IMG/VR virus record: IMGVR_UViG_3300046534_001279
Coordinates: 1 to 30,403 of that record
Length of the DNA stretch: 30,403 bases
Source of the DNA: a virus
Reading direction: 5' to 3' (one strand)
Positions 7,443 to 26,300 of the stretch are shown here, piece by piece (positions within the stretch are counted from its first letter, which is position 1; the number at the start of each line of letters is the position of its first letter). The notes under the pieces were generated by a model, which was given only the letters and a program-made list of their open reading frames with translations, searched no databases and had not been told where the DNA came from. The position numbers and the translations under genes are program-made.

Positions 7443-8660
7443 ATGGCACTCTCAATAAAAAACGATTCATCTCAACCAAGATGGATAAACTATGTAGTTG
7501 ACGGACAACCAAAAAGAGCTTTCTTTAATGCTTTTGAAGAAAGATTTATTGAAGAACTAGACAACGCTGATCAAATCAGCAGCAAAAGATCACAGGCTTT
7601 AAGAAAAGCGGTTGAATTAAACCCTAATTCTCTAAATGCAGCTTTAATTCAAAAAAAGGGTGGGTTTGTTAGAAACACTTCTTCCGAGGATAGATTTGAA
7701 GGGTTTGTTTCTTTCATTAATAATAAATTTACGAATTTAACTTTAACCAAACTTAGGAACTCTAACCCTCTTTCTTTATTTAGAACATCTGAAGATCGCC
7801 CTCAAAATGCAGGTACTCAGTTTTTTAATGTTGCTACAAAGAAGTTAGAAAACGTTAGTGGTTTTTATTCTGTTGATAATCAACATATTGTAAGTTTATC
7901 AAGAGGTAAAGTTGTTTATGGATTTGATTTCAGTGCTAGCTTGACTAAAAGAGTTTTAGCATCAAATTTTTACACGCTTTTTAGAAGAAATAATCTTAAA
8001 GGTGTATCTGAACAAGATATTGCGATTGCGTTAATTAATGCATCTTACACAGGTTCAACAGGAACTACTGGTACAACTGTAATTGTTACTGGAGATACAG
8101 GTACTGGATTCTCTACAGGAGGTACGGAAACATTCACTGGATTCACAACTTATAATATTGATTGCCCTAATGGTCAAGTAGTTATATCAGGAGGAACTAC
8201 CGCTTATTTTGGTCAATACGGAATTTCATATGACACTGATCCTTATGCACTTGTTGGGAGCGCAAGCACTATCACTTGCTCTGGAGGTTCTATGGTTGTT
8301 TTCGGAATCGCAAACGTACCCGGGAATGCTCTTTGGGTTTCAGGAGGTACAGTTTGGTTATCTGGCTGCACAACTGGAGATACAGTCTTTTATGACGATT
8401 GTACTTATGAAAGTTTTATTCCTTTCACTTCAGGAACAACTACAGGAACTACTGGAACTACAATAGAGGTTACAGGATCAACAAGCGGAACATGTTATAC
8501 AACACTTGATTTACTTGATTTCTTGTCTTGTTACGGTACTTCCGTAGCTGGAAGTAATAGCGGTTGTACAATATGGGATTTTAACGATAACGGAAATGTA
8601 GATACAGGTGATTTACTGACACTGCTATCTAATTTCTGCACAAGCGGAACCACTGGTTAA
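7443..8660 (+). CDS. Modular virion protein with a C-terminal dockerin-like EF-hand
   Basis: This 405-residue protein has three parts. Residues 1-200 form a mixed helix/strand domain that I do not recognise. About 203-330 is Gly/Thr/Ser-rich beta sequence with repeated SGGT units, flanked by GTTGTT-type linkers near 203-232 and 329-350. Residues 350-399 are Cys-rich. They contain two DLL-x-x-LS helices around a canonical calcium loop at 379-390 (DFNDNGNVDTGD, with acids or Asn at loop positions 1, 3, 5, 9 and 12 and Gly at 6). This arrangement matches dockerin type I modules that anchor secreted proteins in Bacteroidota and Planctomycetes. It lies between the gp15-like and sheath genes with late-type boxes on both sides, so it is probably virion-borne. 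A surface-display or receptor-binding role is inference. There is no signal peptide. Confidence 0.72.
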   Translation: MALSIKNDSSQPRWINYVVDGQPKRAFFNAFEERFIEELDNADQISSKRSQALRKAVELNPNSLNAALIQKKGGFVRNTSSEDRFEGFVSFINNKFTNLTLTKLRNSNPLSLFRTSEDRPQNAGTQFFNVATKKLENVSGFYSVDNQHIVSLSRGKVVYGFDFSASLTKRVLASNFYTLFRRNNLKGVSEQDIAIALINASYTGSTGTTGTTVIVTGDTGTGFSTGGTETFTGFTTYNIDCPNGQVVISGGTTAYFGQYGISYDTDPYALVGSASTITCSGGSMVVFGIANVPGNALWVSGGTVWLSGCTTGDTVFYDDCTYESFIPFTSGTTTGTTGTTIEVTGSTSGTCYTTLDLLDFLSCYGTSVAGSNSGCTIWDFNDNGNVDTGDLLTLLSNFCTSGTTG

Positions 8661-8770: not shown

Positions 8771-11485
8771 ATGGCTTCAGTATTTGTTTCACCGGGTGTT
8801 TACACAAAAGTTCAAGACTTCACTGCCTTCGCATCAAGAGTAGGTATTACCAGACTTGGAATTGTGGGAAGATTCCCAAAAGGGCCAGCTTTCGAAGCGA
8901 TTGCTGTTCCAACAGCAGAAGAGAGATATGAAAGGTTTGGATCAACAAACTACAACTATCCAGCAACATATGTTGCAGACGCTTTCCTTAGTCAGTCAAA
9001 TGAATTGACTATTTCAAGAATTCTTGGTAAATCTGGATTTACAAACTCAGGCGCTTGGCTTGTTATTGCTGATGTCTCTGAGGCTTTTAGTGGAACTTCT
9101 ACTACATCTGGTTTGACATTCACCGACACAGGGCTTGCTGCTTCTACCACATACACATACACATTTGAGGAAGATGGTATCAACTTTGCGGCAGGAGAAG
9201 TTGTTGTAACAGCTGCTACTCCAAACATTAACATTAAGTTTAGCGGAGCGATCACAACAGCAAATATTATTGCTGCAATGGCATCGTCTACCACTTACAC
9301 TGCTTTAGGTATTACATCTTCTGTCTCAACAGAAACAACATACACAGGAGCTGATGGTGAAACTATGTCACTTGCGGTTACAGCTTTAGAGCCAAGAGGT
9401 TCGAAGTCTGGAGCAACACTAGCTGTGCTTAGAAGTAAGAAGAATCAGATTTCTGGAAACTTCTACTTTGATGAAGCTACCGACATTACAATTGGAGCGA
9501 TTGGTTCACCAACGAATCCACTTACTGACTTTGTACTTTCAGCAACTACAGGGCCGCTTACGGCACAAACAAATGGATACACTGTTTCAGTTGATGAAAC
9601 AAAAGCGTCTTATGTAGCAACAGCATTTGGTAAATCAGCAAAAGTAATCTCAGGTCTTGAGAATATGTATGTAGAATCTATCTTTCCACACTTTGCAAGA
9701 GAAGCTTACAATAGAGGAGAGATTACAGGAATCAACCCATCGTTGGTTTATGTTGACACAGACCCATTCACATCTTATAATGCTGATTACACTAACGCAA
9801 AGACACCTTGGATTGTTTCAAGAGTGATCGGAGGAACTGTACGTAACCTATTCAAGGTTCACACAGTATCTGATGGAGACTCTTCTAACAGAGAGGTTAA
9901 GGTTTCATTTGCTAACATCGACATTAATAACAACAGATTTGACCTTATCGTAAGAAGATACGAGTATGGAGACTCTGTTGGTCTTGGTCAGTCAGGTTAC
10001 GAGAGATTCTCTAACTTGGAATTGAACGAAAATTCTTCTAACTACATCGGAAGAGTAATTGGAACATTGGATAAAGTTTACGATCAAGTTTCTAAGTACA
10101 TTACAATTGAAATGGCAGAAGCTGTTCCAACAAGCACTGTGCCAGCTGGATTTAGAGGATACGAAGTAAGAAATGTAGTTACTGGTTCAACAACTAGTCA
10201 ACCAAACATTTACTACAAAACTTCTTATCTTTCTGGAGATTCAACTAGTAGAACATACATGGGAGTTTCAGAACTTGGTTATGAATCAATTACTAGAACT
10301 GAGGTAAGCGTTAAAACAGCTGCTCAGAATATAGAGCATGATTTATTTGCATACGCTGGATCAGTAACTTCTGACAAAACAACACTTAAAGGATTCCACA
10401 TGGAGAGTGCTTCTGATTCAACATTGTTTGATTCAGGCGAGATTTCTTCAATGAGTGCTTATACAGATACTAGCGGACTTTATATTGATAGAGCTAAGCT
10501 TAAATTTACAGTTGTACCTTACGGTGGATTTGACGGATGGGATAAGACAAATGTTTACACCAACTCGTATGAAAGATTTACAGATATTCACACATCTGAT
10601 GTACAATCATTCAAAGATGCTTTAGATATTTTTGAATCTGATACTCAAGTAGATATTAATTTACTTGCTACTCCAGATATTGATTATTCTAATAACCTTT
10701 CAATCTGTAGATATGCACTTGAGATGGTTGAGGATAGAGCAGATACACTTTACATCATGGACTCTCCAAGAGTCGGTGATACTAACACTAACACAAACAG
10801 TGCAGTGTTACAAGTTATCTCTTCATTCGAAGCAACTGGATTTGATTCGTCATATGCAACCACATACTGGCCTTGGCTTAAGACTGAGGATACTGCTTCT
10901 AACGGAAGAATTGTATTCTTATCACCAACATTTGGTGTAGTTAGAGCGATTGCATTCACGGACAACAAATACAACCCTTGGTATGCACCAGCTGGAGCAT
11001 TGAGAGGAGCGCTTCCAAACAATGTTAAAAAGCCTGAGATTGTTCTTTCGAGAGATAATCTTGATGATCTTTACAACGCAAGAATTAACCCGATTGCTTT
11101 CTTCACTCAGCAAGGAACACTTATCTGGGGACAGAAGACTATGCAGGTTGTTAATTCAGCACTTGATAGAATTTCAGTTAGAAGACTTGTATTGAGACTT
11201 CAAAGGCTTGTATCAGCAGCATCATTCTCGCTAGTGTTTGATCCAAATGATGAAACTCTAAGGGATCAGTTTAAAGCTAAGGTAGAGCCTATCTTACTTC
11301 AGATTCAGAACCAAAGAGGTATCTACGACTTTAGAGTTGTAATGGATGACTCTAACAACACTGCCGAAACAATGGATAGACTAGAGTTGATCGGAAAGAT
11401 TCAGATCAAACCTACAAGAGCTGCGGAGTTCATTGACTTGACCTTCCAACTTTTACCAACTGGAGCAAATTTTGATGACTTTTAA
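8771..11485 (+). CDS. Tail sheath protein (gp18-like)
   Basis: This 904-residue protein forms the contractile sheath around the tail tube. The N-terminus (VFVSPGVYTKVQDF) and the following RLGIVGRFPKGPAF block are the standard start of phage sheath proteins. The C-terminal 300 residues carry the conserved core. This runs through RIVFLSPTFGVVRA, NPWYAPAGALRG, LYNARINPIAFF, GTLIWGQKTM and SVRRLVLRLQ, and ends in the strand arm IQIKPTRAAEFIDLTFQLL. T4 gp18 has 659 residues. The extra length lies mainly at about residues 90-330 and 440-600 in Thr/Ser/Gly-rich beta sequence, probably surface domains on the sheath. The gene is closed by a strong terminator at 11514. A short gene repeating its C-terminal arm follows at 11590. 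Confidence 0.95.
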   Translation: MASVFVSPGVYTKVQDFTAFASRVGITRLGIVGRFPKGPAFEAIAVPTAEERYERFGSTNYNYPATYVADAFLSQSNELTISRILGKSGFTNSGAWLVIADVSEAFSGTSTTSGLTFTDTGLAASTTYTYTFEEDGINFAAGEVVVTAATPNINIKFSGAITTANIIAAMASSTTYTALGITSSVSTETTYTGADGETMSLAVTALEPRGSKSGATLAVLRSKKNQISGNFYFDEATDITIGAIGSPTNPLTDFVLSATTGPLTAQTNGYTVSVDETKASYVATAFGKSAKVISGLENMYVESIFPHFAREAYNRGEITGINPSLVYVDTDPFTSYNADYTNAKTPWIVSRVIGGTVRNLFKVHTVSDGDSSNREVKVSFANIDINNNRFDLIVRRYEYGDSVGLGQSGYERFSNLELNENSSNYIGRVIGTLDKVYDQVSKYITIEMAEAVPTSTVPAGFRGYEVRNVVTGSTTSQPNIYYKTSYLSGDSTSRTYMGVSELGYESITRTEVSVKTAAQNIEHDLFAYAGSVTSDKTTLKGFHMESASDSTLFDSGEISSMSAYTDTSGLYIDRAKLKFTVVPYGGFDGWDKTNVYTNSYERFTDIHTSDVQSFKDALDIFESDTQVDINLLATPDIDYSNNLSICRYALEMVEDRADTLYIMDSPRVGDTNTNTNSAVLQVISSFEATGFDSSYATTYWPWLKTEDTASNGRIVFLSPTFGVVRAIAFTDNKYNPWYAPAGALRGALPNNVKKPEIVLSRDNLDDLYNARINPIAFFTQQGTLIWGQKTMQVVNSALDRISVRRLVLRLQRLVSAASFSLVFDPNDETLRDQFKAKVEPILLQIQNQRGIYDFRVVMDDSNNTAETMDRLELIGKIQIKPTRAAEFIDLTFQLLPTGANFDDF

Positions 11486-11513
11486 CAGACTAATAAACAA
11501 TAACTTATAATAG

Positions 11514-11547
11514 AAAAAGGTGATATTTAAACGATATCACCTTTTTT
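11514..11547 (+). terminator. Intrinsic terminator after sheath gene
   Basis: GGTGATAT (11519-11526) and ATATCACC (11534-11541) form a perfect stem, extended by flanking A/T pairs and followed by six T. Confidence 0.88.
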
Positions 11548-11563
11548 ATTGCCTTATTTTTTC

Positions 11564-11571
11564 TATCTTTG
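11564..11571 (+). promoter_or_regulatory. TAnnTTTG promoter box (sheath-fragment cassette)
   Basis: TATCTTTG matches TAnnTTTG and follows a TTATTTTTTC run like the one before the polymerase promoter. It lies 18 bases before the ATG at 11590, exactly the spacing seen at the polymerase gene. Because a terminator sits just upstream, this cassette needs its own promoter. Confidence 0.55.
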
Positions 11572-11589
11572 TATGCAAAATTAGAAATC

Positions 11590-11706
11590 ATGGATGAAGT
11601 AATATTTATCAAAGTCGTAATCAAACCAGTCAGGGTCGTTAAGTTTATTGATTTAGATTTTACATTATTACCATCTGGAGTTGATTTCGATAACAAAGAA
11701 AAATGA
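11590..11706 (+). CDS. 38-residue protein copying the tail-sheath C-terminal arm
   Basis: The frame opens at the ATG at 11590 and stops at 11704. From residue 8 the product (KVVIKPVRVVKFIDLDFTLL, then PSGVDFDNK) aligns without gaps to the last 29 residues of the sheath gene just upstream (KIQIKPTRAAEFIDLTFQLL, then PTGANFDDF). By my count 16 of 29 residues are identical and most others are conservative (I/V, T/S, D/N). The DNA has diverged strongly while the frame stayed open, which argues for selection rather than a fresh duplication. It has its own TAnnTTTG box 18 bases upstream and its stop nearly touches the next ATG (TGATATG). In contractile tails this arm adds a strand to a neighbouring subunit. 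A free arm peptide could cap or tune sheath assembly; that function is inference. Confidence 0.7.
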   Translation: MDEVIFIKVVIKPVRVVKFIDLDFTLLPSGVDFDNKEK

Positions 11707-11707
11707 T

Positions 11708-12073
11708 ATGAGTACAGATTGTTCAAAAGCTGGATTCTCAATTCCTTTTATTGATGAATACCAGAATCAAGAAAAGATGATGGAACTTTTAAAAATTACT
11801 GAAGAAGATGAATTTGAAGACTCTCTTTATGATTATGACAGAAAAGAAAATCAATGGGGAATGACTCGTGACTATGATGGGATACACGGATTGGTTTATT
11901 CCGTGCTAGATAAATGGGATGATCATTATTTAGAGTTTTATCACAAAATCAGTGATATAGACAAAATAAAAGATTCTATCCCGAAAGAATATTCAGATAT
12001 TCTAAATTTAGAAGAATTAAAGATTTTTGCATTCGTTTATTACAATGGGTCGGATGCCCCGTTTAAATTTTGA
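11708..12073 (+). CDS. Unknown acidic protein
   Basis: I do not recognise the family. From the ATG at 11708, one base after the preceding stop, it encodes 121 residues rich in Asp, Glu, Tyr and Trp (for example ITEEDEFEDSLYDYD and YSVLDKWDDHYLEF). There is no signal peptide or membrane segment. The frame extends further upstream to an ATG at 11681, but that start would overlap the sheath-fragment gene. The TGATATG junction, repeated at the next gene, favours 11708. It is the middle gene of a three-gene cassette transcribed from the promoter at 11564. A net-negative small protein could be a DNA mimic or an inhibitor, but nothing in the sequence shows this. Confidence 0.65.
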   Translation: MSTDCSKAGFSIPFIDEYQNQEKMMELLKITEEDEFEDSLYDYDRKENQWGMTRDYDGIHGLVYSVLDKWDDHYLEFYHKISDIDKIKDSIPKEYSDILNLEELKIFAFVYYNGSDAPFKF

Positions 12074-12074
12074 T

Positions 12075-12566
12075 ATGGAAGTAGATAAAGAATTATTAAA
12101 GAAAGCCATTGAGCTTTGGGGTGAAAAAGCTCAACGAGAAATGGTTATAGAAGAAGCTTTAGAGCTAGGTCTTGCATTAATGAAACTAAGGCGATCAGGA
12201 GACCCTGAGAAGCGCATGGCAGATGTAATTGATGAAGTAGCTGATATGAAGATAATGGTGGCTCAAGCGGAGCTTCTGTTTGATTTAGAAGCTATCAACA
12301 CTAGGGTTGAATTTAAGATGAATCGATTGAAGAAAAAAATTGAATCCAAAGAAGTATTTTTGGGATTGAATGGATGGAATGCTCGATGGAATGGTTTGCC
12401 TGAAAAAGATGGCGCTTACTTAGTAATCCATAATCGTGAAGTTGTTATCCGTATTTATAATAGCTATCATAAATGTTGGGATCAAGAGGATGGGGATGAT
12501 CATTTTTGTGACTTAAATCAAATTGATTTTTGGAAGGAAATGCCTCAAATGCCACAGAAAGCTTAG
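12075..12566 (+). CDS. MazG-like nucleotide pyrophosphohydrolase fused to a DUF551-like domain
   Basis: The start is placed at the ATG at 12075, in the TGATATG junction with the preceding stop, giving 163 residues. An ATG at 12027 would add 16 unlikely residues overlapping the upstream gene. Residues 20-85 are helical and carry the all-alpha NTP-pyrophosphatase pattern: EEALE at 26-30 and DEVAD at 53-57, whose acids bind the magnesium ions that activate the substrate. Residues 100-160 (W-x3-W-x-x-LPEKDGAYLVI, then FWKEMPQMP) match the DUF551 pattern common in phages. Phage MazG-like enzymes are thought to hydrolyse (d)NTPs or alarmones; the substrate here is unknown. Its 3' end overlaps the convergent reverse gene by four bases with no terminator between. 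Confidence 0.72.
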   Translation: MEVDKELLKKAIELWGEKAQREMVIEEALELGLALMKLRRSGDPEKRMADVIDEVADMKIMVAQAELLFDLEAINTRVEFKMNRLKKKIESKEVFLGLNGWNARWNGLPEKDGAYLVIHNREVVIRIYNSYHKCWDQEDGDDHFCDLNQIDFWKEMPQMPQKA

Positions 12567-12921: not shown

Positions 12922-13344
12922 TTAAAATTCAAATGTGGTGTTGTTTACTTGCACCTGAGTTACTATTGCGTTATTGTTTATCTCAATAACCATAGGCTGA
13001 TCGATATCGTAAGATAAAGTTCCTTTGGGAGTCAGCATAGGATTGAGCTTAAATGTAGTCTTAAGTGTTCTTGTAGGGGCTGATACGGTATAATTTACAT
13101 CAAAGATGATATCATATTCATCATTCGAATTGTAAAGAGTACCATCAAGTAGTGCATAATATACACCAGTTGAATCCTGAATTACAGGCACATCGTCCTC
13201 AACTAAGGTTTGACCTTGAGTTACATTGTAGGTATTTGCAGAGACGGTATAAGGATCAGTTAAAGTATAATCCTCTACTGTTGCACTTCCGCTTACTGTG
13301 GAAGTGATTAAATAGAATCTTCTATATACTTTAATTTCAGCCAT
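12922..13344 (-). CDS. Beta-rich virion protein, unknown
   Basis: I do not recognise the family. The 140-residue protein is rich in Thr, Val, Asn and Asp with repeated beta-strand patterns (for example TSTVSGSATVEDYTL and VIQDSTGVYYALLDGT). The latter resembles the strand pair in the small protein at 15061 (SLVDSSSGMYSATFV), suggesting both belong to an immunoglobulin-like virion fold. It has no signal peptide or transmembrane segment. It lies between the tail tube and BppU-like genes on the reverse strand and is preceded by a strong RNA hairpin at 13358-13393. A baseplate or fibre role is inferred from position. Confidence 0.6.
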   Translation of the reverse strand: MAEIKVYRRFYLITSTVSGSATVEDYTLTDPYTVSANTYNVTQGQTLVEDDVPVIQDSTGVYYALLDGTLYNSNDEYDIIFDVNYTVSAPTRTLKTTFKLNPMLTPKGTLSYDIDQPMVIEINNNAIVTQVQVNNTTFEF

Positions 13345-15372: not shown

Positions 15373-16299
15373 ATGGGAAAAAAAGCGTTAGTAATTTCAG
15401 GAGGAGGCTCTACAGGAGCTTTCGCTGGAGGTGTTATTCAGTATTTATTACAAGGTCAGGAGAAAGAGTATGATTTATATGTTGGAACTTCTACAGGGAG
15501 TTTATTAGCTCCTTTATCTTCGGTCAGGGAAATTGAAATTTTACGCCAAGGATATACTAATGTAACTTCAAAAGATATATTTTCTTTCAATCCATTTTTT
15601 ACTAAAGGCAAAAGAGCTGGAAAGCATAATTACTGGAAAATACTTTTACGCATAATTATGCTCCGTAAGACTTTTGGTGAATCTCATAATCTTCGAGGGT
15701 TTATTGGAAAATATTTCAAACAAAAACATTTTGATAAATTAAAAGATTCTCATGTTGAAGTTATTGCAGTAGTGACCAATCTAACTTTAGAAACGACTGA
15801 GTACAAATCTTCAAACGATTATTCTTATGATGAATTTTGTGATTGGCTTTGGGCTTCAGCAAATGTCCCTCTTTATATGAGTTTAATGAAAAAGAATGGC
15901 TTTCAATACGCTGACGGAGGATTGTTCCAAAATGTTCCAATCCAAGCTGCAATTGATGCAGGAGCAACAGAAATAGATGTTATTGTGTTAGACTCTGAAA
16001 GCATTACCCCCAAAGGTAATTTTGAAATAAAAAACCCTATTCACTTTATGATCTCTATTTTAAGGATGATGATGAAGAAGAGTATGAGAAATAATATTGA
16101 AATGGGTAAGCTTGAATCTCATAATAAAAATATTGATATTAATTTATGTTTTATTCCAGAAGTGTTGACAAATAATGTTCTCTCTTTTGATAAAGAAAAA
16201 ATGGACGAGTGGTGGGATTTAGGCTATGAACATGCAAAAAGTGGAGGTTTTCAGAACTACAGGCTTACTAAAGGTAATAATCTTAAAAAAACAATTTGA
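15373..16299 (+). CDS. Patatin-like phospholipase
   Basis: This 308-residue protein has the complete patatin set. The oxyanion loop SGGGSTGAFAGG lies at 9-20, the nucleophile elbow GTSTG at 38-42 has catalytic S40, and the DGG motif at 181-183 has catalytic D181. These form the Ser-Asp dyad that hydrolyses acyl chains from phospholipids. Between them are a basic region (about 78-100) that could bind membranes and a W-x-W-A-S-A-N-V-P block typical of bacterial patatins. There is no signal peptide or transmembrane helix. It starts three bases after the small beta protein, inside the late virion region rather than a lysis cassette. It could be carried in the tail to open the host envelope, help lysis, or remodel lipids inside the cell. 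The fold call is firm; the role is inference. Confidence 0.88.
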   Translation: MGKKALVISGGGSTGAFAGGVIQYLLQGQEKEYDLYVGTSTGSLLAPLSSVREIEILRQGYTNVTSKDIFSFNPFFTKGKRAGKHNYWKILLRIIMLRKTFGESHNLRGFIGKYFKQKHFDKLKDSHVEVIAVVTNLTLETTEYKSSNDYSYDEFCDWLWASANVPLYMSLMKKNGFQYADGGLFQNVPIQAAIDAGATEIDVIVLDSESITPKGNFEIKNPIHFMISILRMMMKKSMRNNIEMGKLESHNKNIDINLCFIPEVLTNNVLSFDKEKMDEWWDLGYEHAKSGGFQNYRLTKGNNLKKTI

Positions 16300-18068: not shown

Positions 18069-20879
18069 ATGTCTATTATAAAACAAGTTCCCCAATTTAA
18101 ACAGAGGTCAGAGTACTTAAAGTGTGCTTCTGACCCTGTTTATTTTTTGAATACATACGGAAAAGTGTTCGATGCTGAGAAGCAAATGATTTCTGACATG
18201 ACCTGCTTTAGTTATCAGGAAGATGTCTTGGATGACTTCATCGATTTCCGTTTTAATATAACCCTTAAATCAAGACAGTGTTTACCTATAGGCACTTATG
18301 TTAATGTCCCAAACGGTATAAAATCAATAGAAAAATTTAAAATAGGAGACCCCGTATGGTCTTATAATATTAGTTCTGAAGAAAAAGAAAAAGATAAAGT
18401 TTTTGATGCTTGGAAGAGTGGCATGAGAGACTGCGTTACTTTAAAATTAAGAGATACCAGAAATATAACTATCGGAAAAAAACATCCTTTATTTATTAAA
18501 GGAAAAGGATGGGTTAAGGCTAAAGACTTAATAAAGGGGGATCAAATTTTATTTGAAAAACCATCTTTTGGGAATGTTTCTCCAAGAAATTCTTATGTAA
18601 TTGCTTTAGGTTATATGATAACTGATGGTAGTGCTATAAGTCAGCCAAAATTCACTAATAATAATTTAAATTATATTGATGAATTTTGCGATTGTGTTAA
18701 GGAACTTACTCCTAATTTACAAATTAGAAAAGTTCAAAAATGTAATGGATACGATGTTTTTCCTCATCAAGAACATGGGTCGTCAACTAAGAATTCATTT
18801 AAAGTTTTATGTGAAGATATGGGGGTTAATGTAAAATCTGAATATAAGATTTTACCAGAAGAAGTTTTTTCTTGGAATAAAAAATCAACTTCTCTTCTTT
18901 TGAATAGAATGTTTGCTGGAGATGGTTGGGTTAGTATTTATAAAAATGGGGGTTCTAAAAGATTAGAAATAGGGTTGGGTTCACCTTGTAGGGAATACTT
19001 ATATCAAGTCAAAAACCTTTTACTTAAATTTGGAATTACTAGTAATGTCTATGAAATTACTGGAATGAAAAAGCAAAAAAATAATTTTTGGAAACTTAGA
19101 GTTACCCATTCTAAAGCATGTAAGTTGTTTATTGAGGAAATTAGTATTTATGATAAAGTTAAGGAAGAACACTTTGAGATTGTTAATTCATACAAACATG
19201 ATGTAAAATATGACTCAGTTGTAAAATCTATTAAAGATGCTGGTAAAATTTTATGTTACGACATTTCAGTTGAGAAAAATGAAAACTTTTTCATTGATGG
19301 CTTACTAACTCATAACACTGGACTTTCCGTAGTAACCGCTGGTTATTGTGCGTGGAGGCTTATGTTTGGAAAAGATGAGAGGGTTCTTGTTATTGCTAAT
19401 GATGGAGCGGGAGCAATTCGTTTCCTTGAAACATGTAAACAATTCATTGACTATCTACCAGATTTCCTTAAACCACCAAAGGTTGGAACTTCCATTTATA
19501 AGACTGAAAACAAGAAAATGCTTCAGTTCTATAACAACTGCCAAATAGAAGCAAAAGCAGCTTCTCCTCAAGCTGGTCGTGGTGAGGCTTTAACATTATT
19601 GGTTTTGGATGAGGTTGCCTTTATTAAAGATGCTCCAGACATTTGGAAAGCAGCTTCAACAGCTCTTTCGATGACAAAAGGTGATGCAATTTTGATCTCT
19701 ACTCCTTGGGGTACAGGAAACTTGTATCATGACATTTGGACAAAAGCCGAGGCTAAGATAAACGATTTTCATCCAGTTGAGATTCACTGGACTCAAAACC
19801 CTATTGCATCTAAAAACCTTGAATGGAGAATCGATGATGAGGGTGAAAAATATCCTTGGAGTCCTTGGTACGAAGAACAGTGTACTAGACTAAATAATGA
19901 CCCAATTGCTATAGCTCAAGAGTTAGACCTTTCGTTTGAAGGTTCGAAGCACTTGGTTGTTGATGCAAAGATTTTGAGAAAATATAAAGATAGAATTAAG
20001 AATGAAGGTATTGAGCCTTTGTGTTATTTCGATTGGAAAGTAGACTCGTCAAACTTCACTTATGATATTACTCCCTTCTATATTTGGGAGCTTCCGATTG
20101 AAGGTCATAACTATATTATTGGCGGTGACGTTTCTAGGGGTGATGGTCGAGATTTTTCTACTCTTCAAATACTTGATGTAGAAACGATGACTCAAGTTGG
20201 TGAGGTTCAAATTAAAGTTGATCCAGATCAATTGGCAGATATTGTTTATAAAGTTGCTCAGGTTTATAATAACGCATTTGTAGCAATTGAGGTTAACTCG
20301 ATGGGTTCCGCTACTACATTTAGATTGAAGAATCAATTAAAATATACCAACCAATTTTTCTGCAAAAACTATAAAGATTTTTATGTCAAAGCTTCTTCTT
20401 ATAAGGAGGCAGCGATGTATAAAGACGGGGCGTTGGTTCCCGGTTTCCAGACCACAACCAAAACCAGACCTCTTATGATGGCTAATCTAATTCAGATTAT
20501 GAGAGAAAGACAAGTTATCATTAATTCAAAAAGACTTTTAAACGAGTTTGACACCTTTGTTAAAGTAAAAGACAAAGAGCAGCATGAAAAAGGGTTTAAT
20601 GACGATTTAATCTTCGCATGGGCAATTGCGCTTTACATGAGGAATACTGAGTATGAAAACGCCACTAAATCAAGAGAGCAAGCAAAGCAGATGATGAAGT
20701 ATTTCAATCTTAATGGTAAATCACCAATGAGAGATAATACTCCAGCTTCAGTAAGAAGACCAAAGAGAGATGGTGAAGAGGACGAAGAAGGTAAAAGAAG
20801 TAAGGGTGTAAGTCCAATTATCTTTGGAGGATCAAGAAGTCAGTCGGAAGAAGACGACATTAATTGGTTATATGACTAA
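18069..20879 (+). CDS. terL: Terminase large subunit (gp17-like), interrupted by an intein
   Basis: The 936-residue precursor encodes the DNA-packaging motor and headful nuclease. Removing the intein (residues 71-416) leaves 590 residues, close to T4 gp17 (610). The exteins join as LKSRQ/TGLSVV, forming the P-loop KSRQTGLS. This lacks the usual GK(S/T) lysine but keeps a lysine at the first position, as in lambda TerL (KSARVGYS). Walker B is LLVLDEVAF with D514 and E515, followed by the coupling motif ISTPWGTGN. The RNase H-like nuclease has acids D687 (IIGGDVSRG), E741 (AIEVNSMG) and D845/D846 (FNDDLIFAW). The C-terminus is charged and disordered. The gene has a late-type box and precedes the portal. 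In T4, genes 18 and 19 lie between 17 and 20, so the order is rearranged here. Confidence 0.93.
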   Translation: MSIIKQVPQFKQRSEYLKCASDPVYFLNTYGKVFDAEKQMISDMTCFSYQEDVLDDFIDFRFNITLKSRQCLPIGTYVNVPNGIKSIEKFKIGDPVWSYNISSEEKEKDKVFDAWKSGMRDCVTLKLRDTRNITIGKKHPLFIKGKGWVKAKDLIKGDQILFEKPSFGNVSPRNSYVIALGYMITDGSAISQPKFTNNNLNYIDEFCDCVKELTPNLQIRKVQKCNGYDVFPHQEHGSSTKNSFKVLCEDMGVNVKSEYKILPEEVFSWNKKSTSLLLNRMFAGDGWVSIYKNGGSKRLEIGLGSPCREYLYQVKNLLLKFGITSNVYEITGMKKQKNNFWKLRVTHSKACKLFIEEISIYDKVKEEHFEIVNSYKHDVKYDSVVKSIKDAGKILCYDISVEKNENFFIDGLLTHNTGLSVVTAGYCAWRLMFGKDERVLVIANDGAGAIRFLETCKQFIDYLPDFLKPPKVGTSIYKTENKKMLQFYNNCQIEAKAASPQAGRGEALTLLVLDEVAFIKDAPDIWKAASTALSMTKGDAILISTPWGTGNLYHDIWTKAEAKINDFHPVEIHWTQNPIASKNLEWRIDDEGEKYPWSPWYEEQCTRLNNDPIAIAQELDLSFEGSKHLVVDAKILRKYKDRIKNEGIEPLCYFDWKVDSSNFTYDITPFYIWELPIEGHNYIIGGDVSRGDGRDFSTLQILDVETMTQVGEVQIKVDPDQLADIVYKVAQVYNNAFVAIEVNSMGSATTFRLKNQLKYTNQFFCKNYKDFYVKASSYKEAAMYKDGALVPGFQTTTKTRPLMMANLIQIMRERQVIINSKRLLNEFDTFVKVKDKEQHEKGFNDDLIFAWAIALYMRNTEYENATKSREQAKQMMKYFNLNGKSPMRDNTPASVRRPKRDGEEDEEGKRSKGVSPIIFGGSRSQSEEDDINWLYD
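18279..19316 (+). mobile_element. Intein with LAGLIDADG homing endonuclease in terminase P-loop
   Basis: The 346-residue insertion is in frame. It begins with C71 (CLPIGTYV, block A) and has a block-B-like TIGKKHPLF. Two dodecapeptide endonuclease motifs are present: LGYMITDG at 180-187 with D186, and LLNRMFAGDG at 277-286 with D285. It ends CYDISVEKNENFFIDG then LLTHN (blocks F and G), with the splicing Asn at 416 and Thr417 as the +1 nucleophile. All splicing residues appear intact, so excision should restore KSRQTGLS. The endonuclease should cut intein-free copies of the gene and spread the element. Insertion inside an ATP-binding motif is typical, because that site is too conserved to escape by mutation and imprecise loss is lethal. 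Confidence 0.95.
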
Positions 20880-23391: not shown

Positions 23392-26300
23392 ATGTATCTA
23401 ATATTTGACACCGAGACAACTGGATTACCTCAAAACTATGAAGCCCCAATCACTGATACACAGAACTGGACACGGCTTGTACAGCTTGCTTGGATTGAAT
23501 ATGACATCAATGGAAATGAGTTAAGGAGATCAAATCTAATCATAAAACCTGAAGGGTTTATTATTCCTCAGGATTCAATTGACATTCACAGAGTTACAAA
23601 TGAGATAGCCAACGAAAAAGGTGTTTCTCTAGCTGATGCTGTAGAACAGTTTGATCAAGCCTTGTTACGAAATCACTATTTAATTGCTCACAACATATCT
23701 TTTGACCAAAAAATAATGGGTGCTGAGTATGTTCGTTTGGATAAGGATTATAAAAACCTATATGCAATTGAACATATTGACACAAAAGACACTACAGTTC
23801 AGTTTTGCAAAATTCCTAGTAGAGGAAAGGGTTTCAACTTTAAATGGCCTACTCTGACAGAACTTCACGAAACTCTTTTCGGAAGAGGTTTTGATGGCGC
23901 TCACGATGCGATGGTCGATGTTTTGGCGCTTGCTAAGTGCTTCTTCAAACTTCAGGAACTTGAATACTACGATTATAAAGATATCCCTCAAAAAATTGCG
24001 GGTCTTGATTTTGTTCCAAAAGAAGGGGCTACCTATGACTATGGAGGTAGCTTATCAGATGCAGAACTAGATAAGCCCGTAGTGGCTTTGGGGGTTCATA
24101 CTGATCACTCCTTGCTTCGTGGGGCGGCTACTGCTAAAGATTACATTGAAGTAGCTAAGAAGAACAATCACCCTGCAATCGGTATTACCGATTGGAATAC
24201 TATGTCTGGAACTTTAGAGTTTTGGATGAAATGTAAAGAAGCCAAAATCCATCCAGTACTAGGAATGGAACTCATGATCAATGAGAATATTGGAAAATTT
24301 GAAGAGCAAGGCGATGAAGGTGGCGATTTTCCTTTGAAATTTTTCATTAAAAACCAAGAAGGGTATGTCAACATGAACAAGCTCCTTTACAAGGCAAATA
24401 CAGAAGGTTTTAGATATCCTTACGGGAGAATTAAGACTGAGTGGTTGCTGCAAAATAAAGAGGGTATAATTGTTACTGCTGGTTGTCATGATGGTTTTAT
24501 CTGTGATCTGATGCAGAAAGGACACAAAAGAGAGGCTGAGGCTTACTTTAAGCTACTTCACACTCAGTTTGGTGAAGACTTTTATGTAGAGATTAAACTG
24601 AATGAGTTAATCGTACAGAAGCGCTTAAATAACTTTCTTTTAAATTTAGCTAGTAAGTATGGTGTGAAGGTCTTCACGGACAACGATGTTCATTATGCTT
24701 ATCCAGAAGATAACGATCTTCAAGACACTCTATTGGCTATTGGTCAAAAAGCCCCTCGTTCTCAAGCGAGACTTTTTGAGAGAAGAAGCTTGTATTATCC
24801 AACGAGAAGAGATTATTTGAAACTGAATAGAAAGTATGGATATAACTATCCAGAGGATGTTCTTATGAGTTTCATGGACAACACTCTTGAGTTAGGTAGA
24901 AAATGTCGTTTTGATTTTGAGATTGGAAAAGAAAAATACCCAAGATATGAAGCTACACCTGAAATTATAGATTTTTTCGGAACTGATGATCCTGAAAAAA
25001 TAATCTACAAACTTTCTTTTGGTAAACTGAATAAGAAATTAAAAGAAAGAGCTATACGTACAAAAACCCCAATCTCTAAAGAACAAGTTCAGGAATACCA
25101 TGATCGATTAAATTTTGAATTAGAAGTAATCAAAAGCAAATCAATGCTTGACTACTTCTTAGTAAACTGGGAGTTGATTCGTTATTATCGCTCTACGGGA
25201 CATGAGATAGGTGCAGCTCGTGGGTCAGGAGGAGGTTCTTTACTTTCTTATGCTTTGGATATTACTAAAATTGACCCTCTAAAGTACGGTCTTTATTTTG
25301 AGCGTTTTCTAAATCCAACTCGTGATTCACCGCCCGATTTAGATATTGACTTTGAATCTGATACACAAGATATCATTGACGGATTCCTTGTGAAGAAATA
25401 TGGAGCTACTAGAACTTTCCATGTTTGTACATTAGGCACATTCAATGAAAAAAGTTGTTTGAAGGATGTCGGAAGAGCTTTGTTGGGCAGAAAATCTGTT
25501 GAGAGAGGTTCAGATATTGAACAAGTAAACAGAGATATTGATAGACAGATAAATCATTTAGGGGACAAATTTCAATTAAAAGAATTTTTTGAGAGCTACT
25601 CAAAGAGCGATTCTTGTCACGCAATTACAAAGAATTGGTTAAATGATCCTGAGAACAAAAAGGTAATGGTTCAGACTCTTCGTTTGCAAGGAAGGGTGAA
25701 ACAATTGGGTCAACATGCTGCTGGTGTTGTAATAACACCTACAGATTCTTGGAACTACATTCCAACTAACGTGATTGCTGAGAATGGTGCTGTGGTTTCT
25801 GCTTTTCCTGAAGCTGATGGGTCATTTAAGGCTTTATCTTATTTGGGTATTCTAAAATTAGATACGCTTAAGATTTCTGCGATGAACATTATATCATCTT
25901 GTATTAAGATGGTGAAGGAGCGTAGAAATATAGATATCACAGATGATATTGTTTATGTTGAAGATCACTTTGACGATCCTAAATTATATGAAGAAATTAG
26001 GCTTGGCTTGAATCACGGAATATTTCAATTTGAGTCCTCTGGAATGAATGGCTTAATCCGCTCAATTCATATCGAGAATTTTGAAGAACTAACAGCGGCA
26101 AACGCATTGTTTCGACCCGGACCAATGGGTATCGGAGCTGATAAAGAGTTTATTGTCAATAAATTCAACCCTGAAGCAATCACTTATGTTCACCCACTTT
26201 TGGAGGAAGTTCTTAAGGAAACTAACGGAGTAATGGTTTTTCAGGAGCAAGTACAATTTCTAGCTAAGAAAATTGCTGGATTTAATTACGGTAAAGGTGA

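Follow-up and report, generated by a model that had tools for sequence, protein, structure and literature searches.

A 38-codon gene resembling the C-terminal joining module of the tail sheath in a contractile-tailed phage

Why should a phage carry, directly behind the gene for its tail sheath, a separate frame of 38 codons that resembles the end of the sheath itself, and is this frame a gene or the residue of a duplication? The question is raised by positions 11590-11706 (+ strand) of a 30.4-kb piece of a contractile-tailed phage genome, the whole of which we refer to as the window. The host of this phage is probably a member of the Bacteroidota, judging from the host-type promoter boxes (TAnnTTTG) that it carries, and its close relatives are metagenome contigs only. 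Elsewhere in the window, the terminase large subunit gene (18069-20879) is interrupted in frame by an intein that contains a LAGLIDADG domain (Pfam Intein_splicing, E 2e-17; LAGLIDADG_3, E 2.5e-14), and a patatin-like phospholipase gene (15373-16299; Pfam PF01734, E 7e-28) lies within the phage structural region.

A separate copy of the end of the sheath

The source of the copied segment is the tail sheath gene at 8771-11485 (+), which encodes a T4 gp18-like protein of 904 residues, assigned by profile searches (PHROG 23 tail sheath, E 4.6e-60; Pfam PF17482, E 6.8e-9) and by matches in the PDB, at the level of both sequence and fold, to T4 gp18 and the KP1 sheath. The protein encoded upstream of it (7443-8660) has, by eye, a dockerin/EF-hand-like end (DFNDNGNVDTGDLLTLLSNF) and no Pfam match. 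The frame behind the sheath gene is intact, as the first-pass annotation had proposed, and is translated as MDEVIFIKVVIKPVRVVKFIDLDFTLLPSGVDFDNKEK (38 aa, followed by a stop). Searched against its own record, the peptide finds the sheath C-terminus (11390-11479) at E 3.1e-8 and 53% identity without gaps (16/30), reproducing the 16 identical residues counted earlier; homology at this level (E 3e-8) supports the reading of the peptide as a duplicate of the sheath end. An alignment with one gap, where sheath Gly875 is missing, extends over peptide residues 1-35 with 19/35 identities and 62% of the nucleotides identical. The start Met then pairs with sheath Met868 and the match runs to the FDN/FDD near the sheath end, the final KEK of the peptide being an extra beyond it.

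By alignment and AlphaFold2 modelling, the copied segment corresponds to the last 37 sheath codons (11372-11482, +; residues 868-904). The sheath model, built from a 30-sequence alignment with a mean pLDDT of 75.8 and about 60-75 in the copied part, places strands at 853-857, 873-880, 888-895 and 898-903, so that the copied part is predicted to comprise the second strand of the C-terminal hairpin (873-880) and the C-terminal arm strand (888-895). The peptide had been described as the sheath arm alone; the arm is indeed copied, but so is the strand that precedes it. A model of the lone peptide is uncertain (pTM 0.35). In phage E217, the sheath C-terminal β-turn and the N- and C-terminal arms of neighbours form a four-stranded intermolecular sheet that joins the subunits (PMC10329688), in XM1 neighbouring subunits are linked through their N- and C-termini, a "handshake" by which the sheet of the ring below is extended (PMC10457771), and in Milano and XM1 the C-terminal arm of the terminator protein completes the sheet of the top ring (PMC10491603, PMC10457771). 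By homology of position, the window sheath may be joined in the same way.

The arms nearest to the peptide are those of the sheaths of the window phage and of its relative L003 (50% identity), followed by that of L004 (47%) and by other sheaths (23-42%), and a Met, an LLP and an FDD are common to the peptide and the own-lineage sheath. The duplication therefore most likely arose inside the phage's own lineage, with 38 residues being too few for a decisive tree. The three positions that are invariant across 23 aligned sheath arms (P13, F24 and G30) are all kept, as is the FIDL-x-F core of the module. At sheath position 886, by contrast, where Glu is found in 30/30 aligned sheaths and also in the L003 copy, the window peptide has Lys, which could reflect an altered specificity or the onset of decay. 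The peptide has no Pfam, PHROG or PADLOC match and no profile match to PF17482 or PHROG 23, and nothing matched it in a search of annotated phages; going by its sequence, we regard it as a fragment derived from the sheath family and not itself a sheath protein.

Two other origins of the frame were considered. It could be what survives of a second complete sheath gene, as the tandem full sheath genes of L066-type relatives would suggest; this is less likely, given that the own-lineage arm is the nearest and that no other sheath part is left. An antisense frame (11505-11741), which is also stop-free and has a pN/pS of 0.31 between the window and L003, was rejected as the gene: it shares its third codon positions with the sense frame, so that a low ratio is expected, and the insertion found in L003 (see below) shifts the antisense frame too.

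Purifying selection and a damaged copy

The only comparison available for the free copy is with L003, whose sheath gene is 89% identical to that of the window at the DNA level, with a dN/dS of 0.056, and whose spacer is likewise 89% identical. Across the peptide region, 25/111 compared positions differ, distributed as 12.2 nonsynonymous changes in 88 sites and 12.8 synonymous changes in 23 (pN 0.14, pS 0.56, pN/pS 0.25), which gives a dN/dS of about 0.15, an estimate from 37 codons of two sequences with dS near 1 and with the insertion codon left out. Two genuine fast-evolving genes nearby, the MazG-like gene and the gene at 12922-13344, resemble the peptide in this respect, with pN/pS values of 0.17 and 0.23 for the two phages. 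In neutral simulations with the same number of differences, as few amino-acid changes occurred at P 0-0.0005, and over nine mutation models at P 0-0.004, while neutral drift at the observed differences produced an in-frame stop in 54-71% of runs. The forward frames +1 and +2 of the region contain stops in both phages. The ratio is thus not near 1, the value that the first-pass annotation had tied to a decaying duplication, and we reject the view that the copy decayed neutrally from the outset. Judged from these substitution patterns, the peptide has been kept as a protein under purifying selection between the two phages and, by its core, since the duplication; that the frame has been a selected gene is, in our estimation, highly probable.

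The L003 copy is nevertheless damaged. It starts with GTG instead of ATG, and a 1-nt insertion (CCAAATTAGG versus CCAGTCAGG in the window) leads to an in-frame TAG after 14 codons. No internal stop or split match was found in the other genes compared along the 12-kb L003 contig, which makes an assembly error less likely than a real mutation. The 24 codons after the insertion are still constrained (8.8 synonymous and 8.2 nonsynonymous changes, pN/pS 0.23), so either the frame was broken only recently or translation still yields the arm part, speculatively from an internal TTG start. In L003, the frame in which the peptide match continues extends over the beginning of the next gene as well.

An optional gene at the head of an accessory operon

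Sheath gene and peptide gene are separated by an intrinsic terminator (11514-11546, +), a perfect 13-nt inverted repeat (13/13 paired) with a loop of 7 and a T run. In L003 the stem is altered on both sides and still paired (GGTGATAT/ATATCACC to GGTGGTAT/ATACCACC), and these compensatory changes bear out the terminator proposed from the window alone. It is followed by a Bacteroidota-type -7 box, TATCTTTG (11564-11571, +), identified by pattern scan and by its conservation in L003, which lies 18 nt upstream of the peptide ATG and predicts a transcription start near 11576; it is identical in L003 and present as the variant TACTTTTG in L004. The box fits the flavobacterial sigma-A -7 consensus TAnnTTTG (PMC9723704), whereas a TTG at the usual -33 spacing was looked for and not found; only half of the promoter consensus is therefore present, and the suggestion that the peptide has its own host-class promoter holds for the -7 element and not for the -33 element. 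A similar arrangement of terminator and box is found upstream of the DNA polymerase gene at 23392.

The peptide gene is followed, after a single nucleotide (TGA-T-ATG junction), by a gene for a protein of 121 residues (MSTDCS...; 11708-12073, +) with no Pfam, PHROG or PADLOC match, and then by one for a protein of 163 residues (12075-12566, +) whose N-terminal part is a MazG-like nucleoside triphosphate pyrophosphohydrolase (PHROG 2245, E 4.2e-18) and whose C-terminal domain is a separate 77-aa gene in L004 (9160-9393). With a terminator, a TAnnTTTG box and a peptide gene present in 1/48 other post-sheath regions, the locus has the features of an accessory ("moron") operon, headed by the peptide gene, in a variable site between the sheath gene and an oppositely directed tube block.

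When 49 distinct post-sheath regions (the window, L003 and 47 others) were searched by tblastn with four arm queries, the window and L003 alone proved to contain a free arm; the sole other arm match, in L066, is a complete second sheath gene. Degenerate patterns of the peptide core, run over viral and genome contigs, matched the L003 record only, a sheath scan of genome contigs matched none, and scans with neighbouring proteins (P0004, P0005 and P0006) returned no further close relative, while a tube-protein scan returned many distant ones. The short ORF that the first-pass annotation had proposed to look for in related phages thus recurs in one relative, where it is frameshifted; the survey comes close to finding no conserved short ORF at all, which weakens the first-pass interpretation. 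In L004-L006, the sheath is 81% identical and the terminator, promoter box and next gene (11708-12073 homologue) are shared, and the peptide is absent from precisely the place where leader and ATG meet; it was either gained after the split from this group or lost in L004. Since phages with an 81% identical sheath manage without it, the peptide is not a generally required sheath cap, and its gene is rare, dispensable, optional cargo.

What the peptide may do

The peptide is best read as an accessory small protein that originated when part of the sheath gene was duplicated; as its mechanism we tentatively favour, with rather less than even confidence, the binding of sheath subunits by β-strand addition. 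A copy of the last ~36 sheath codons lies between the sheath terminator and the accessory operon, the one promoter-like box immediately ahead of it is host-type, and the ATG equivalent to sheath Met868 serves as the start. The peptide would be produced separately from the late sheath gene, probably at an earlier stage, and its strand-plus-arm module may bind sheath subunits where the arm of a neighbour normally sits, and would there compete with or cap the joining of subunits, in the phage's own tail or in that of another contractile phage in the same cell. Sheath binding appears the most likely role because this module, with its invariant P, F and G and its FIDL-x-F core, is kept; of the functions that would make use of these retained features, strand addition is the simplest. 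A more specific form of the idea, which we consider unlikely, is that of a natural decoy, likened to the capsid-derived restriction factors in animal genomes: a free joining strand of the sheath, made before the late genes, that jams sheath assembly by co-infecting contractile phages.

The main competing explanation, possible though in our view doubtful, is that a partial duplication, useful and selected in the past, is on its way out: the window copy would be intact by chance and the L003 copy dead, while the L004 group would either never have gained it or have deleted it. The L003 frameshift with its in-frame TAG and GTG start, on a contig whose other compared genes are unbroken, the 47 other distinct post-sheath regions without the peptide, and the replacement of an invariant Glu by Lys in the window copy all agree with it; however, the codons past the frameshift share in the low dN/dS, so that any loss of constraint must be recent, the window copy retains its ATG, frame, stop and promoter box, and the TTG start in L003 could still yield the arm part. 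Far less can be said for neutral debris, left by duplication or homing-type recombination in a variable cargo site and open by chance. The site is indeed variable among relatives, which carry zinc-finger, GIY-YIG-like and fibre-like ORFs or, in L066, tandem sheath genes, but the low dN/dS with its simulation support, and the stop that neutral drift would be expected to have introduced, over a time since duplication that is longer still than the divergence simulated, make this explanation very improbable.

Two further explanations were weighed. It is rather improbable that the ORF is a leader frame that acts through its translation, by coupling to the next gene, or that its role is unrelated to the sheath. 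This would suit its place as the first frame after the promoter box, the TGA-T-ATG junction, the overlap of the match-continuing L003 frame with the next gene's start, and the strong divergence of the peptide from the sheath; a pure leader, however, would not show selection on its residues or keep the invariant P, F and G, and the next gene of L004 has the same promoter position without any peptide. Still less probable is a structural role in the phage's own tail, where the peptide would occupy, for example, the joining sites left open in the last sheath ring. The terminator arm fills exactly such a site in Milano and XM1, but L004-L006 lack the gene, the likely promoter is host-type and not shared with the sheath, and a terminator stands between the two genes. 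An essential tail part is unlikely.

Several known systems resemble the proposed sheath-binding peptide in part. The peptide is homologous to the last ~36 residues of T4 gp18-type sheaths (PHROG 23, PF17482) and keeps their invariant family positions, but is 38 residues long, with a separate promoter box and no sheath body. As we propose for the peptide, the terminator arms of Milano gp18, XM1 gp5 and E217 gp29 give an outside strand to the sheath; these, however, are C-terminal parts of terminator or collar proteins and not free peptides, and have not been shown to descend from the sheath. In the type VI secretion system (T6SS), altered sheath subunits are dominant-negative (PMC5797969), and VipB-D333A and VipA-N5 offer a precedent for an altered sheath piece that blocks a contractile machine, although they are engineered full-length subunits and the peptide is a natural fragment. 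Phage "moron" operons, which lie between late genes with a terminator and a promoter of their own, match the locus in position, own signals, variable presence and small genes; at this locus, one cargo gene is itself a copy from the structural gene next to it. In our searches of the literature we came across no account of a stand-alone gene encoding a sheath joining strand. If the peptide does bind the sheath, evolution would have turned a copy of the machine's own joining strand into an inhibitor or regulator of contractile tails, and the peptide would offer a small, testable handle on the start, stop or sabotage of sheath polymerisation. With 38 codons, its gene is also of a size that annotation normally skips and that dN/dS makes recognisable.

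The region behind the sheath gene appears to be a hot spot in related phages, and this could have been the cause of the partial sheath duplication. Judged by eye, zinc-finger ORFs (CxxC...CSRKC) directly follow the sheath gene in L048, L049, L052, L087 and L066, and the post-sheath site of L066 also holds a GIY-YIG-like ORF. Tandem sheath genes about 60 nt apart occur in L066 (148-1764 and 1818-4460) and also in L061, L067 and L080.
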